From contig NZ_JBBMXV010000001.1 in assembly GCF_037996645.1 (NCBI RefSeq), positions 62,001 to 126,000 on the forward strand: a stretch of 64,000 nt of DNA, given 5' to 3'. Each line of letters begins with the position of its first letter. The stretch's first letter is position 1. Below are positions 2,568 to 23,631 of this stretch, one piece after another. A program made the position numbers and the translations under genes. The notes below the pieces were generated by a model. The model saw only the letters and a program-made list of their open reading frames with translations, had not been told where the DNA came from and did no database searches. The DNA is from Halalkalicoccus tibetensis (GTDB lineage: Archaea; Halobacteriota; Halobacteria; Halobacteriales; Halalkalicoccaceae).

Positions 2568-2660
2568 CTTCTCTGAATCACTCTCCGCGAGCGACCGTGA
2601 TAGTATGTCGCGAGCGCTGCCGCGCGAGGTGACGCCGTTACGGCGTCGTGACACCAACAA

Positions 2661-2668
2661 CTATAATC
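2661..2668 (+). promoter_or_regulatory. Candidate TATA box for the gene at 2701
   Basis: CTATAATC stands out in G+C-rich sequence. A start site about 26 bp downstream would be near 2690, giving a leader of about 10 nt. Confidence 0.4.
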
Positions 2669-2700
2669 GCCCTCCGATACGTTCGCGGTGGGTGTGTCCA

Positions 2701-3012
2701 ATGACCGCACCAGACTCGCTCGACGACGTGAAGGAACTGCTCGAGGCCGGCTGGGAGATCCGGTGGGACGGACGCACCGGCAGCGACTACCCGCCGAACT
2801 ACCGGCTGGTCGAGTTCGAGAAGGACGACAGCACCGACTACACCCCAGTCAAGCAGCTCCACCTGCTCGCGAAGGACTACGAGGAGGTCGAGGAGCTGCG
2901 CGAGGACGGCGGGGGATCCGAGGAAGGTGACGACGACAGCGACGACGATGACGATGCCGACGGCGAGGAGGACGAAAGCGGGGAAGACGAGGAGTCGGAC
3001 GGGGATGAATAA
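2701..3012 (+). CDS. Small acidic haloarchaeal hypothetical protein
   Basis: A 103-residue protein in two parts. Residues 1-62 are a folded-looking region with G-W-E-I-R-W-D-G-R-T-G-S-D-Y-P-P-N-Y-R-L, and residues 68-103 are an almost pure Asp/Glu/Ser/Gly tail that is probably disordered. I chose ATG 2701 because a TATA-like element lies 33-40 bp upstream and the extra upstream residues have no acidic bias. No known domain is recognised. Acidic tails are common in haloarchaea. Confidence 0.6.
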   Translation: MTAPDSLDDVKELLEAGWEIRWDGRTGSDYPPNYRLVEFEKDDSTDYTPVKQLHLLAKDYEEVEELREDGGGSEEGDDDSDDDDDADGEEDESGEDEESDGDE

Positions 3013-3229
3013 CGCTCCCCTCGCCATCGATCGGCGTGCGCACCGATCACGTCCGTAGAACCGGATCGGCAACGATCACCGCACCCGTCGTTCCGCCGAA
3101 ACGTCGTATTCGACCGCTGACGGCCCGAACGGCCCACCGGCCGATTCCGGGCACGCCACGGGTCCCCAGGAGAACGATTCTGACAAAAACGCCGAGTCTC
3201 TCGCTCCAGAACGGCGGGTTCGAAGCCGT
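3013..3229. other. Intergenic spacer, nothing recognised
   Basis: 217 bp between two convergent genes. I see no reading frame with protein-like composition, no RNA gene and no clear repeat. Confidence 0.5.
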
Positions 3230-3859
3230 CTACTCCTCGTCCTCGCCGGCGGCGTCCTCCTCTTCCTCGTCGGTCTGGAGGCTTCCCTCGTTGAGCTCGT
3301 CCTCGTCGTCGTTGACCATCTGGACGTCGTCGGCGGGATGGCCCTCGGAGCCGCCCTCCTTGGTGTTCTCGGGGACCGCGTCGCCCTCCGTCGGGCCGGT
3401 GATCTCGGCCTCCTCGCCGGCGCCCTGGGCCTCGTCCTCGGGCGTCTCGCCGGTCTCCGGGTCGCCGAAGTCACGCGGTGATTCGGTGTTCTCCTCGGCG
3501 ATCACGCCGGGCTCCTCCTTCTCGGGGCCGTCCCCGCTCCCGGTATCGTCGTCATCGTCGTCGCTCGTCCACGGCTCGCTGACCTCGACGTCGCCCTCGG
3601 AGGCCTGTCGCTGGGCGCGCCCGATGGCGATCCAGCCCGCGCCGACGGCGATCTGGCGCAGTGCCTTCCCCTTGCTCGAACGGAGCGCCGCAAGCCCCTT
3701 CAGGACCGTGAACCCGCCGGCGAGCAGCGAGAGGGTGCCCATTCGGCCGTGTTTGACGACGATCGGCCGGAGCGTCTCGATCACCGAGCGTACGCCCGCC
3801 GGCAGTTGATCCTCGCTATCCGTCGAAACCGCGAGCGGCACGTACTGTTGTGGTCGCAT
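3230..3859 (-). CDS. Haloarchaeal hypothetical with short hydrophobic core and long acidic tail
   Basis: A 209-residue protein. Residues 20-85 contain amphipathic or hydrophobic helices (R-M-G-T-L-S-L-L-A-G-G-F and R-Q-I-A-V-G-A-G-W-I-A-I-G) that might associate with membrane. From about residue 93 to the end the sequence is dominated by Asp, Glu, Gly, Ser and Pro and is likely disordered. No signal peptide or enzyme motif is visible. A conserved haloarchaeal family is likely but its function is unknown. Confidence 0.6.
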   Translation of the reverse strand: MRPQQYVPLAVSTDSEDQLPAGVRSVIETLRPIVVKHGRMGTLSLLAGGFTVLKGLAALRSSKGKALRQIAVGAGWIAIGRAQRQASEGDVEVSEPWTSDDDDDDTGSGDGPEKEEPGVIAEENTESPRDFGDPETGETPEDEAQGAGEEAEITGPTEGDAVPENTKEGGSEGHPADDVQMVNDDEDELNEGSLQTDEEEEDAAGEDEE

Positions 3860-3929: not shown

Positions 3930-4838
3930 CTACCGTGTCCCGTCCTCGGGCTCGAGCGTCCGCCCGAACTCGTCGAACGGCTCCAGGTCCGGCGGCAGCT
4001 CGGAGGGGATCTCGCGTTCGTCCTGGCGGTTCACCAGTCGCCCCTCGACCGGCTCGGCGCGGTCCTCGAACCCCGGCTTGACCCGCACGCTCTTCGCGGG
4101 GGTTCCGACGACGACGTGGTGGGCGGGCACGTCGCCCTGGACGATCGCGCGCGCCCCGACGATGCTGTTCTCGCCCACCACGCAGCCCGCCCGGACCATC
4201 GCGTCGTAGGTGACGCGGGCGTCGTCCTCGACGCGCGTCTCGAAGTTCGTCACCTGCGTCTGGTCGACGATGTCGTGGTCGTGGCTGTAGAGGTGGGCGC
4301 CGTCGGAGATCGATACCCTGTTTCCGATCTCCAACCGGCCGCGGTCGTCGAGGTGGACGTCGTCGTGGACCACCGTGTTGTCGCCGACGGTGATGTTGTG
4401 GCCGTACGTAAAGGAGATCCCCTTGAAGAACCGACAGCCCTCGCCACACTCCTCGAAGAGGTGGTCGGCGAGCATCCGCCGGAACCGGATCGCGAACTCG
4501 ACGTTGTCGGCCATCGGCGTGGCGTCGAACTGCCGCCAGAGCCACTGGAGGTGTTTCGACCGCCTGAACTTCGCCTCGTCCTTCTCGGCGTAGTACTCGC
4601 TTTCGAGGGTGGAGTTACAGGGGTCGTAGCCCTGGAGCCTGACCCGCTCGGCCGGCGAAACGTCCCCGCCCGCTTGCCAGCGCTCGTAGGCCTCCCGGTC
4701 CCCGTAGAGGTCCACGAGGGTGTCGCGAACGACCTCGCAGGTGTCCTCCTCGCCGGCGAGCCGGTCGTCGACCTCCGTGATGAACGCCTCGACCCCTTCC
4801 TCGGCCTCCGCGGGGAGCGAGACGTGGCGTTTCGTCAT
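3930..4838 (-). CDS. Left-handed beta-helix acyltransferase (hexapeptide family)
   Basis: A 302-residue protein. Residues 1-130 are helical, and residues about 146-250 show the imperfect [LIV]-G-x-x-x hexapeptide repeats of the trimeric xenobiotic/sugar O-acetyltransferase superfamily. The catalytic-type His lies in YSHDHDI (residues 184-190), and the helix closes with H-H-V-V-V-G-T-P-A-K-S, typical of maltose/NodL-like acetyltransferases. The N-terminal extension is longer than in sugar acetyltransferases. I chose ATG 4838 (MTKRHVSLP) over an upstream ATG at 4892 because that extra stretch is basic and lies in the intergenic region. Confidence 0.75.
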   Translation of the reverse strand: MTKRHVSLPAEAEEGVEAFITEVDDRLAGEEDTCEVVRDTLVDLYGDREAYERWQAGGDVSPAERVRLQGYDPCNSTLESEYYAEKDEAKFRRSKHLQWLWRQFDATPMADNVEFAIRFRRMLADHLFEECGEGCRFFKGISFTYGHNITVGDNTVVHDDVHLDDRGRLEIGNRVSISDGAHLYSHDHDIVDQTQVTNFETRVEDDARVTYDAMVRAGCVVGENSIVGARAIVQGDVPAHHVVVGTPAKSVRVKPGFEDRAEPVEGRLVNRQDEREIPSELPPDLEPFDEFGRTLEPEDGTR

Positions 4839-5017
4839 GGCCCCCGTTCGGCGGGCGCGTTCAAATGGGGTTCGGTTGTGCGTCACGGCCATTCAATCAT
4901 TCTAGAGACAGAATCAGCGTATACACTGTCATCCTTACAAATCAAAATAGCTAAGTATATGCTAAATACTTTTCGAATAATAGAGCAACACAATAAAATT
5001 AAATCTTAACTGGTTCG
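4839..5017. other. Boundary of the A+T-rich island; imperfect direct repeat at 4908-4920
   Basis: Composition changes abruptly near 4890-4920 from G+C-rich to A+T-rich. ACAGAATCAGCGT (4908-4920) recurs with one base missing as ACAGAATAGCGT at 6224-6235, at the other edge of the island. Several TATA-like stretches occur before 5018. No gene is seen in the spacer. Confidence 0.4.
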
Positions 5018-5500
5018 ATGAATCGGTTTTACATTCTCAAATCTCTCAGGAATCAGCCAGCACGACCCTGTGAGCTTGTTTCTCAATATTCGATATCACG
5101 ACCGACTGTCCAAAGAATTCTTGCCGACCTTTCTAAGCTATACTGGATCCGAAAAGAGCAGAACCGATACCGAATCACATCCGCTGGTGAACAGATTCTA
5201 GATAGTTACGAGGAATTATATAAAACAATAAAGATCACGAGTAGGTGGGATACATTCTTGGCTCAACTCGGGAACTGTGGCTCCAATCTCCCGTTGAGCA
5301 CATTAACCACTGCTACGATAACAATGAAAGCGAGTTACTACAACGACGATTTCCGGCTTTCATTCGAACGTACCTATGTGGATCACGAACTGTTCGTTCG
5401 AGGTCGTAGCGATGGAACGTACCGATGGGAAGGCAGTGCAGACTACTCCGGAAGCCAAGCCCGGCGTTTATTGGGAACGGAGTTCGGCCCAACTACATGA
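5018..5500 (+). CDS. Winged-helix transcriptional regulator-like protein, possibly truncated
   Basis: A 160-residue protein. Residues 4-60 form a winged helix: ILKSLRNQPARPCELVSQYS, then S-R-P-T-V-Q-R-I-L-A-D-L as the recognition helix and a wing ending Y-R-I-T-S-A-G. This resembles haloarchaeal ArsR/FilR1-like regulators, which usually start 10-15 residues earlier and have a larger C-terminal ligand domain, so this copy looks short. A stop codon six codons upstream excludes an N-terminal extension. Codon use is A+T-rich, unlike the neighbours. Its TGA overlaps the ATG of the next gene. Confidence 0.6.
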   Translation: MNRFYILKSLRNQPARPCELVSQYSISRPTVQRILADLSKLYWIRKEQNRYRITSAGEQILDSYEELYKTIKITSRWDTFLAQLGNCGSNLPLSTLTTATITMKASYYNDDFRLSFERTYVDHELFVRGRSDGTYRWEGSADYSGSQARRLLGTEFGPTT

Positions 5501-5862
5501 CCCAAACCGACGGCGTTGAGTTAAGTGGATTCGAACGGTCTATAGTGCTTATTTTTTGTGTTTTAACAGGGATTGCAGTATGTACATATATTGGTGGTTT
5601 GATCAGAGATACTGCAATCGGAAATGTGATTGCTCCAGCGGTCGACCTTTTTTTCATTCTGTTTGTATATCTACCACTCGTTACCGTTGGCCTCGTCGGC
5701 ACGGAACTACTCGGCATTGATCCACCGAACAGTGAGCCGCTTGGTACTGCACTTGCAACGGTTCTTCTTTTGATAATCTATTACGTTATAGCAGTGTTTT
5801 TGGTTAACAGCTACCGTATCTCTGTCGCGTTCTACATCGGTCTATCTAATCAGGAACATTAA
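5497..5862 (+). CDS. Small integral membrane protein of the A+T-rich island
   Basis: 121 residues with three predicted transmembrane helices (about residues 14-36, 43-68 and 84-104) and short polar ends. It starts in an ATGA overlap with the regulator gene, implying translational coupling and a shared transcript. It has no charged residues in the membrane, no known motif and no family I recognise. Codon use is A+T-rich like its two neighbours. Confidence 0.55.
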   Translation: MTQTDGVELSGFERSIVLIFCVLTGIAVCTYIGGLIRDTAIGNVIAPAVDLFFILFVYLPLVTVGLVGTELLGIDPPNSEPLGTALATVLLLIIYYVIAVFLVNSYRISVAFYIGLSNQEH

Positions 5863-5899
5863 CATATATGGAAAGTAATATATTACTGAGGAACTGCTC

Positions 5900-6232
5900 A
5901 TGCTGAAAGATCACCAAGATAAATTCGGACGACGGAACGTACTTATCGGAATCGGTGCAGCTATCGGCGGGATGCTCGCGATTTCAAGTAATGCACGCGG
6001 AGGAAGCGATGATCCGACGATCATTCACGCTTCGACCGAGGAGTATGACGGACTCGATAGCGCCTCGGTCGAAATTCACGAAGATCACATCGTTCATAAG
6101 GCCAGTGGGACTGCCACAGCTAACGAGGAAGGAAATGAAACACCCGCAGTTGACGAGAAGACTCGCGGGTATCATATCAGTCTCACTGATGACGACGAGG
6201 TGATGATTCGAGAAACAGATCCTACAGAATAG
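5900..6232 (+). CDS. Small Tat-exported protein of unknown function
   Basis: A 110-residue protein with a twin-arginine signal: F-G-R-R-N-V-L at residues 9-15, a hydrophobic stretch at 14-30, and a likely cleavage near A-R-G (residues 32-34). The mature part is about 75 residues, acidic and without Cys. It lies 37 bp after the membrane-protein gene and has the same base composition, so it probably belongs to the same module. A secreted peptide precursor or a substrate of the membrane partner is conceivable, but this is inference. Confidence 0.55.
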   Translation: MLKDHQDKFGRRNVLIGIGAAIGGMLAISSNARGGSDDPTIIHASTEEYDGLDSASVEIHEDHIVHKASGTATANEEGNETPAVDEKTRGYHISLTDDDEVMIRETDPTE

Positions 6233-6235
6233 CGT
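6224..6235. repeat. Right copy of an imperfect direct repeat flanking the A+T-rich island
   Basis: ACAGAATAGCGT repeats 4908-4920 with a single base deletion and overlaps the stop codon of the Tat-protein gene. Normal G+C-rich sequence resumes within about 50 bp. Confidence 0.3.
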
Positions 6236-6305
6236 TCTACTGCAACTGTATAATAGTCAGCGAAGGTCCGCATCCGCTAAGTATCCCCCGTCCCATACCC
6301 CGAGT

Positions 6306-7361
6306 ATGCACTACCGCACGCTCGGCGACTCGGACGTCGAGGTCAGCGAGGTCGGCTTCGGCGCCTGGACCGTCGGCACCGACTGGTGGGGCGACCGAAC
6401 CGACGAGGACGCGATCGGGATGCTTGACCACGCGTTCGACCGGGGGATCACCTACTTCGACACGGGCGACGTCTACGGCCACGGCCGCTCGGAGGAGCTG
6501 GTCGGCGAGGCCTTCGCCGATCGGCGCGAGGAGGTCACCATCGCCACCAAGGTCGGCTACGACTTCTACAACAACCCGCAGGCCGGCCACGGCGAGCTCC
6601 CGAAGGAGATGGACCCCGAGTACCTCCGCGACGCCGTCGAGAGGAGCCTCGACCGGCTCGACACCGACTACGTCGACGTGCTCCAGCTGCACAACGCCGA
6701 CGTCGAGGAGCTCACCCCCGAGGTGCTCGACGTGCTCGACGAACTCGAGAGCGAGGGCCGCATCCGCGCCCGCGGGCTCGCGCTGGGCCCCTCGATCGGC
6801 TGGCTCGCCGAGGGCGACACGGCGATCGCCGAGGGGTTCGACGCCGTCCAACTGGTCTGGAACCTCTTCGAACAGGAGGTCGGCAACCACTTCCTCGAGA
6901 CCATCGACGAGCTCGACGCAGAAACGAGCCTCATCCCCCGCGTGCCCCACTCCTCGGGGCTGCTCAACGAGCAGGTCACCCCGGAGACCGAGCTCGGCGA
7001 GGGCGATCACCGGGGCTTCCGGCCCGACGCGTGGTACGAGACGGGATGGGAGAAGTTGGAGGCGATCCGGTTCCTCGAACGGGAAGGTGCGAGAACGATG
7101 GGCCAGGCGTCGATCAAGTGGCTGCTCGCCCACGACGCCGTCGCCACCGTGACACCCACCTTCCGCACGACCGACGACATCGACGAGTGGGCCGGCGCGA
7201 GCGACGTGCCGGAGCTCTCCGAGGAGGAACTCGACCGCGTCGCGGAGCTCTACGCGACGAACTTCGGGATCGAGCGCGACGACGGGATGGACTCGCTTCG
7301 CTCCTCCGTCGACGGCGAGGACCTCCGCGAGGCCGGGATCGACAAGCAGCCCGCCGACTGA
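6306..7361 (+). CDS. Aldo/keto reductase
   Basis: A 351-residue NAD(P)H-dependent oxidoreductase with the TIM-barrel AKR signature. The catalytic tetrad is Asp52, Tyr57 (F-D-T-G-D-V-Y-G), Lys82 (A-T-K-V-G) and His129 (Q-L-H-N). The C-terminal cofactor region M-G-Q-A-S-I-K-W-L-L and V-T-P-T-F-R-T-T-D-D-I fits the family. The substrate is unknown; related bacterial enzymes act on aldehydes, sugars or quinones. It sits just outside the A+T-rich island and has normal haloarchaeal composition. Confidence 0.9.
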   Translation: MHYRTLGDSDVEVSEVGFGAWTVGTDWWGDRTDEDAIGMLDHAFDRGITYFDTGDVYGHGRSEELVGEAFADRREEVTIATKVGYDFYNNPQAGHGELPKEMDPEYLRDAVERSLDRLDTDYVDVLQLHNADVEELTPEVLDVLDELESEGRIRARGLALGPSIGWLAEGDTAIAEGFDAVQLVWNLFEQEVGNHFLETIDELDAETSLIPRVPHSSGLLNEQVTPETELGEGDHRGFRPDAWYETGWEKLEAIRFLEREGARTMGQASIKWLLAHDAVATVTPTFRTTDDIDEWAGASDVPELSEEELDRVAELYATNFGIERDDGMDSLRSSVDGEDLREAGIDKQPAD

Positions 7362-22293: not shown

Positions 22294-23631
22294 ATGACGA
22301 ACCGCCCCAACGTCTGTCTGATCCACTGCCACGACCTCGGGCAGTACCTCGGCTGCTACGGCGCAGCCGTCGACACCCCCCGAATCGATCGGCTCGCCAG
22401 CGAGGGCGCGCTGTTCGAGAACCACTTCACGACCGCCCCGCAGTGTTCGCCGAGTCGCGCGAGCCTGATGACCGGCCGCCACCCCCACGAGAACGGGCTG
22501 ATGGGGCTCGCACACGCCACCTGGGAGCTTCACGACGACGAGCGGTATCTGCCCGACTACCTCTCGGAGGCGGGCTACGACACCCATCTGTTCGGCCTCC
22601 AGCACGTCACCGAGTACCCCGACCGGCTGGGCTACGACGAGATCCACTCGGAGGGCGTGCTCTCGCCCGAGGCCTCGCCCGCGATCCACGAGGTCGACCG
22701 CGCCCGCGAGGTGAGCGGGACGTTCGCCGACTGCGTCGACGACCTCGACGACGATGACCCCTTCTTCGCCTCGATCGGCTTCTTCGAGCTCCATCGGATC
22801 AAAAACGACGAGGGGGTCCACGTCTTCAAGGACGATCGGTACGAGTCGGCCGACCCCGAGGAGGTCGATCCCCTCCCCTATCTGCCGGACGCGCCCGGGA
22901 TCCGCCGGGACCTCGCCGACGCCCAGGGCATGCTTCGCGCGATCGACGACGGGGTCGGAACGGTGCTCGACGCCCTCGACGAGGCCGGAATCGCCGAGGA
23001 CACCCTAGTGATCTTCACGACCGAACACGGGCTGGCGATGCCCCGGGCCAAGGGGACGGTCTACGACCCGGGGATCGAGGGGGTGCTCCTGATGCGCCAG
23101 CCGGGATCGATCAATCCGGGGCGCCACTCCGAGCTGATCAGCAACGTCGACGTGCTGCCGACGCTGCTCGAGCTCGCCGGCGAGCCCGTGCCCGACCGCG
23201 TCTCGGGACGGAGCTTCCTCCCGTTGCTCACGGGCGGGGAGTACGACGCCCGCGAACGGCTGTTCGCGGAGATGACCTGGCACGACGTCTACAACCCGAT
23301 GCGGGCGATCCGCACCCGCCGATACAAGTACGTCCGCAACTTCTGGCATCTGCCCGAGGTCTACCTCACGAACGACGTCAGCCACAGCCCCGCCGGCGAG
23401 GAGGTGCGGACGGAGTTCGACAGCCCCATTCGGTCCTACGAGGAGCTCTACGACCTCGAGGCCGACCCCCACGAGCAGGAGAACGTCGTCGAATCGGCGG
23501 ACTACGAGGAAGAGGCGGCGGACCTCCGCGAGCAGCTGTGCGGGTGGATGGAGGACACCGACGATCCGCTGCTCGAGGGCCCGGTCCCGCCGGGCGACTT
23601 CGAGGAGATCATGGCGTGGCCGCCCGAGTGA
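22294..23631 (+). CDS. Sulfatase (alkaline phosphatase superfamily)
   Basis: 445 residues, no signal peptide. The sulfatase signature C-S-P-S-R-A-S-L-M-T-G-R begins at Cys51, the residue that would be converted to formylglycine. Metal ligands are plausible at His/Asp of the N-terminal H-C-H-D and at the later T-T-E-H-G. Residues 300-380 contain the R-x-x-R-Y-K-Y-V region of arylsulfatases. The natural ester substrate (a sulfated lipid or glycan) is unknown. It ends 6 bp before truA. Confidence 0.88.
   Translation: MTNRPNVCLIHCHDLGQYLGCYGAAVDTPRIDRLASEGALFENHFTTAPQCSPSRASLMTGRHPHENGLMGLAHATWELHDDERYLPDYLSEAGYDTHLFGLQHVTEYPDRLGYDEIHSEGVLSPEASPAIHEVDRAREVSGTFADCVDDLDDDDPFFASIGFFELHRIKNDEGVHVFKDDRYESADPEEVDPLPYLPDAPGIRRDLADAQGMLRAIDDGVGTVLDALDEAGIAEDTLVIFTTEHGLAMPRAKGTVYDPGIEGVLLMRQPGSINPGRHSELISNVDVLPTLLELAGEPVPDRVSGRSFLPLLTGGEYDARERLFAEMTWHDVYNPMRAIRTRRYKYVRNFWHLPEVYLTNDVSHSPAGEEVRTEFDSPIRSYEELYDLEADPHEQENVVESADYEEEAADLREQLCGWMEDTDDPLLEGPVPPGDFEEIMAWPPE

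Follow-up and report, generated by a model that had tools for sequence, protein, structure and literature searches.

The DNA examined here raises the question of whether three small genes in a strikingly A+T-rich block form one secreted-protein system, or are the cargo of an accessory insert and need not act together. The window, by which the whole 64,000-nucleotide stretch is meant, lies in a 3.6-Mb Halalkalicoccus genome (G000). Six other genomes of the same genus (G001-G006) were examined for the same site, among them those of Halalkalicoccus paucihalophilus (G003) and the metagenome-assembled archaeon B79T1B8 (G005). No literature on this locus was found among the titles and abstract openings retrieved.

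Extent of the block and the same site in related genomes

The GC content was 0.449 at positions 4881-6266 and 0.690 in the rest of the window, and among all 1386-bp stretches of the window, those with the lowest GC overlapped this block without exception. A first-pass annotation had placed an A+T-rich island at 4.9-6.24 kb; the island was confirmed, and its extent was refined by setting its edges against the empty sites of relatives to about 4881 and about 6266, with an uncertainty of about 20 bp, since no two relatives have the same spacer. Three plus-strand ORFs occupy most of the block, which lies between a leftward acetyltransferase gene and a rightward, hence divergent, aldo-keto reductase gene, the distance between the two being 1467 bp. 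The features are as follows.

3930..4838, minus strand: left neighbour, WcaF-like hexapeptide acetyltransferase (family match; conserved neighbour)
4861..4880, no strand: conserved block TCAAATGGGGTTCGGTTGTG, adjoining the insert on its left side (kept across the aligned empty sites)
4881..6266, no strand: A+T-rich accessory insert (GC contrast; empty sites in G001-G004 and G006)
5018..5500, plus strand: ORF1, shortened HVO_A0261_N (PF25213) winged-helix regulator, probably decaying (68.3 bits; profile; upstream motif)
5497..5862, plus strand: ORF2, predicted membrane protein with three helices; distant member of an unnamed haloarchaeal family (26 bits; hydropathy)
5900..6232, plus strand: ORF3, small acidic protein with a twin-arginine signal and no Cys (sequence; G005 relative; dN/dS)
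6267..6288, no strand: right conserved block TCCGCATCCGCTAAGTATCCCC (kept across the aligned empty sites and in G005)
6306..7361, plus strand: right neighbour, aldo-keto reductase (PF00248, 1.1e-52; conserved neighbour)

An empty site was found in all five congeners that have both neighbours on one contig (G001-G004 and G006), at neighbour distances of 110, 118, 137, 143, and 147 bp. In these gaps, slightly varying versions of TTCAAATGGGGTTCGGTTG (left) and TCCGCATCCGCTAAGTATCCC (right) flank a short, species-variable spacer. In the window, the A+T-rich block substitutes for this spacer and leaves both conserved flanking blocks intact, of which the left is probably the promoter of the acetyltransferase gene and the right probably that of the reductase gene. 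The contig of G005 starts inside ORF3; its remaining 79 residues are 73% identical to the window ORF3, and the right junction is the same in both genomes. The left part of the block and the acetyltransferase gene were not found in G005, a result of little weight since this genome is 71% complete. As the first-pass annotation had it, the block is distinct and A+T-rich and contains a gene for a putatively exported protein; of the six congeners examined, five are without it at this place.

Elsewhere in the window, a gene at 22294-23628, which we take to be sulfatase-like, was matched in G005 and G007 and was missing from the G003 stretch, where its neighbours (presumably hisS-like and truA-like) are adjacent. 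It is another patchy gene common to the window genome and G005.

Transfer or vertical descent

Three marks of a horizontally acquired insert were found: close relatives have an empty site, the composition is foreign, and the distribution is patchy. The block is best classed as a small accessory insert of this kind. The explanation preferred here, with modest confidence, is that it was acquired via its conserved flanks and that its genes do not necessarily act together. The block would have come from another, more A+T-rich haloarchaeal lineage and would have settled where two ordinary, divergent genes share a promoter gap, both promoter-like blocks staying intact. Since neither an integrase nor terminal repeats were found, recombination within the conserved flanks is the probable route of entry; according to the abstract of PMC4500145, haloarchaeal species gain new genes by recombining with one another, which fits this route. 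The cargo would comprise a shortened HVO_A0261-type winged-helix regulator that is probably decaying, a small three-helix protein of a dispersed haloarchaeal family that would stay in the membrane, and a small acidic protein that the Tat pathway would carry in folded form to the cell surface or into the medium. Against acquisition, the donor lineage was not found, with no close relative beyond G005 in the genomes, viral contigs, phages, and plasmids searched, no duplicated flank was found in the window, and the left part of the block is not visible in G005.

Vertical inheritance, with the block present in the ancestor of the genus and lost in most lineages, is unlikely. It would account for the finding that ORF3 occupies one and the same junction in G000 and G005, the latter lying on a branch outside the group of G000 and its near relatives. 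In a tree of nine proteins (3541 columns; a tenth protein, missing from the G002 stretch, was omitted), G000 was placed with G006 (support 69), then with G004 (81), G003 (77), and G001 (73), and G005 fell outside these five (98 for the group including G005), so that four lineages nearer to G000 than G005 is are without the block. Descent would therefore need separate losses in G001, G003, G004, and G006, each leaving a short gap of normal kind, and the low GC of the block also speaks against it. Between G000 and G005, the dS of ORF3 (0.397, bootstrap 0.20-0.67) was below that of all 11 neighbouring genes (0.63-1.12), the outcome expected from later transfer, in a comparison that rests on 79 codons and is weakened because GC3 differs (0.48/0.58 for ORF3, 0.89-0.95/0.73-0.83 for the neighbouring genes). 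Later sharing of ORF3 between the two genomes by transfer is the simpler reading.

The three genes and their possible joint action

The first-pass annotation had described a short winged-helix protein, a three-helix membrane protein coupled to it by ATGA, and a small Tat-exported protein with no Cys. The ORFs agree with this description, with an ATGA overlap between ORF1 and ORF2, three hydrophobic stretches in ORF2, and an RR motif and no Cys in ORF3. It had recognised no family for any of the three proteins, and had read their order as control, membrane, and export substrate of what could be a new secreted-peptide or immunity system.

ORF3 encodes 110 amino acids, with RR at residues 11-12; its Tat-type signal consists of the RR motif and a hydrophobic stretch, and was assigned by motif and hydropathy judgement with no dedicated predictor. 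A relative was found in one of 194 other genomes (G005). In a class-wide draw of 391 genomes, among whose listed members G005 does not appear, the window's own copy was the sole match that stands; five non-self matches were rejected, being mostly alignments of the signal region or of unrelated frames, one of them with stops. No relatives of ORF3 were found in viral contigs, phages, or plasmids. Between G000 and G005, dN was 0.154 and was lower than dS in 297 of 300 bootstraps, and ORF3 is therefore a real gene, under purifying selection. Structure prediction from the two sequences gave a mean pLDDT of 37.5 and no usable model, and PDB sequence searches gave no meaningful match. Judged by its signal, the protein is probably exported folded by Tat and would act outside the cell. 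ORF3 is the most credible working gene of the insert and the part most clearly kept by selection.

ORF1 (160 amino acids) belongs to a known family, contrary to the first reading: PF25213 (HVO_A0261_N) matched residues 2-75 at 68.3 bits, well above the cut-off of 35. Proteins similar to ORF1 were present in 79 of 195 genomes at E 1e-8, the window's own genome counted, and plasmid-borne relatives of the family are annotated as FilR1/DUF1724-domain regulators; the searched literature contained no mention of HVO_A0261 as a name. A full-length homologue of a known family, which the first-pass annotation had regarded as evidence against its proposal, was found in part, since the family match is clear but falls short of full length. 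Residues 2-105 align with the N-terminal part of HVO_A0261-type regulators, and the match to a family profile of about 257 positions ends at residue 105; the 15 members aligned in that profile have 247-267 residues between a point just ahead of the match and their ends. ORF1 falls short of its relatives by about 100 residues and, unlike the aligned ones, is without the second, C-terminal half; residues 99-160 as sole query gave no match to the 15-member profile. Five non-self matches to this C-terminal part were rejected as short and in frames that look unrelated. In contrast to its relatives, ORF1 also appears to start inside the N-terminal motif of the family, GSxNR, since ILTGS precedes the ATG in the same frame and itself follows a TAA. 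GC by codon position was 0.469/0.463/0.469, with no contrast between positions, and the winged-helix region was the least acidic among 14 compared. Structure prediction of ORF1 alone gave a mean pLDDT of 41.9 and no usable model. On these sequence features, ORF1 is probably a decaying regulator, and its reading frames suggest that it may be frameshifted; alternatively, it may be a trimmed but working repressor. By its family, it would be, or would have been, a local DNA-binding regulator.

ORF2 (121 amino acids), whose start lies in the ATGA overlap, has three strongly hydrophobic stretches by hydropathy. Neither Pfam nor PHROG gave a match at E up to 1; NCBIfam gave three, the best at E 0.06, all far below cut-offs. 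Four non-self matches were obtained at E 4.8e-4 to 9.3e-4, of which only that in G144 (L012) was carried on. Those in L009, L010, and L011 were dropped as being, by eye, other membrane proteins; L010 shows some likeness to ORF2, and its rejection may be a false one. The weak G144 match was used for a two-sequence profile, which found 20 non-self genomes among 391; 16 were kept (E 1.6e-8 or better) and four at E 0.003-0.008 were left out. All 16 lie in the Natrialbaceae (f8, the family that includes Natrinema altunense, G016), and a profile of their proteins built without ORF2 scored ORF2 at 26 bits. By profile score, ORF2 is a distant member of this unnamed, predicted three-helix family (L165-L180), and the earlier statement that it has no recognised family is to be corrected to that extent. 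The family itself had no Pfam family in the ORF2 scan. Its members have the length and hydrophobic pattern of ORF2 but lie in a conserved chromosomal neighbourhood, with no adjoining Tat protein of the ORF3 kind. Around the 16 loci, one protein cluster contained 13 neighbours (presumably glycerophosphodiesterase-like) and another contained 10 (presumably purH-like), and the family is therefore an ordinary chromosomal one.

If the three genes formed one device, ORF1 would be the operon repressor, ORF3 an exported antagonist or signal, and ORF2 its membrane immunity or receptor partner. Gene order, the common strand, the 37-bp gap between ORF2 and ORF3, the Tat-type signal and purifying selection on ORF3, and a patchy distribution such as antagonism genes have are consistent with this proposal, and the ATGA overlap suggests co-translation of ORF1 and ORF2 and hence perhaps joint function, a point against the acquired-insert explanation. 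What would tie ORF1-ORF3 together is gene order and overlap. Nevertheless, we consider a joint system quite unlikely: the trio was found together in no other genome examined, ORF1 looks decayed and is without its second half, the relatives of ORF2 stand in ordinary chromosomal context, and no convincing toxin, immunity, or defence family was matched. A new secreted-peptide or immunity system is thus unproven and not favoured. Halocin C8, another point of comparison, is like the predicted ORF3 product a small haloarchaeal protein exported by Tat, but it is cysteine-rich, whereas ORF3 has no Cys; one gene reportedly gives both production of and immunity to halocin C8.

The same gap in other haloarchaea

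The divergent acetyltransferase/reductase pair was present in 56 of 80 named loci, and the larger gaps (16 loci, among those listed) varied in gene content from lineage to lineage. In Natrinema pallidum (L113) and Natrialba aegyptia (L115; 3210-3593), the gap contained A+T-rich DNA that encodes small Tat-signal proteins. The two proteins are homologous to each other (27% identity), and a relative of the L113 protein, split over two reading frames, lies in the gap of a further Natrialbaceae genome (G192; L203). They resemble ORF3 in being small, in having a twin-arginine signal, and in lying in an A+T-rich insert in the same gap, but they are on the opposite strand, have no adjoining regulator or ORF2 relative, and show no significant similarity to ORF3 beyond the signal region. 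The L113 region 2590-3580 comprises the insert and, after it, a degenerate beginning of the reductase gene and 120 bp that repeat the acetyltransferase start at 99% identity. Recombination with a donor that carried this locus would be expected to leave such a scar, and by analogy the window cargo may have entered in the same way, by recombination with the donor's own acetyltransferase/reductase locus.

GC-normal genes of other kinds were seen in the gaps of L147, L148, L152, L028, L124, L139, L093, L086, L121, and L098; we take these to be genes for CPBP-like membrane, Tat-signal propeller-like, and helix-turn-helix proteins and an oxidoreductase-like gene.

These comparisons bear on a wider reading, in which the gap would be an exchange locus of Halobacteria, with conserved flanks between which A+T-rich cassettes are swapped by homologous recombination, ORF3 being one variant and ORF2 its membrane partner. 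Common to the cassettes would be a small Tat-exported protein whose sequence changes, as in antagonism or recognition loci. Such a locus is distinctly improbable on the counts obtained. Of 12 A+T dips in the 80 loci (703,177 bases), two were in the gap, which makes up 5% of the bases; there is no clear excess because dips are mostly expected between genes, and a formal excess of A+T-rich inserts in the gap was not demonstrated in the 80 loci. Two of three A+T-rich, small Tat-like ORFs in these loci were in the gap, the third looking spurious, and these two may be one event because they are homologous to each other. A profile of the L113 and L115 proteins matched 27 of 125 Natrialbaceae genomes at E 1e-3, only five of them above 40 bits, three in the gap and two outside it.

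If the block were what remains of a virus, plasmid, or transposable element that had integrated between the two neighbours, its low GC, orphan genes, and sharp edges would be explained, but this origin is very unlikely: there was no integrase or transposase among the block ORFs, no convincing terminal or flanking repeat, no relative in viral contigs or phage records, and no relative of ORF2 or ORF3 in plasmids, and the nearest tRNA is 2.4 kb away. A 9-bp repeat, GCTAAGTAT, near both block ends was judged to be within chance.

As an acquired insert, the block is mostly ordinary, one more case of a haloarchaeal genome with a small accessory insert whose genes are poorly known. If A+T-rich Tat genes recurred in this gap of distant haloarchaea more often than chance allows, the gap would be a locus at which small secreted proteins are swapped between genera via conserved neighbours, and would offer a handle on the role of small haloarchaeal Tat substrates.
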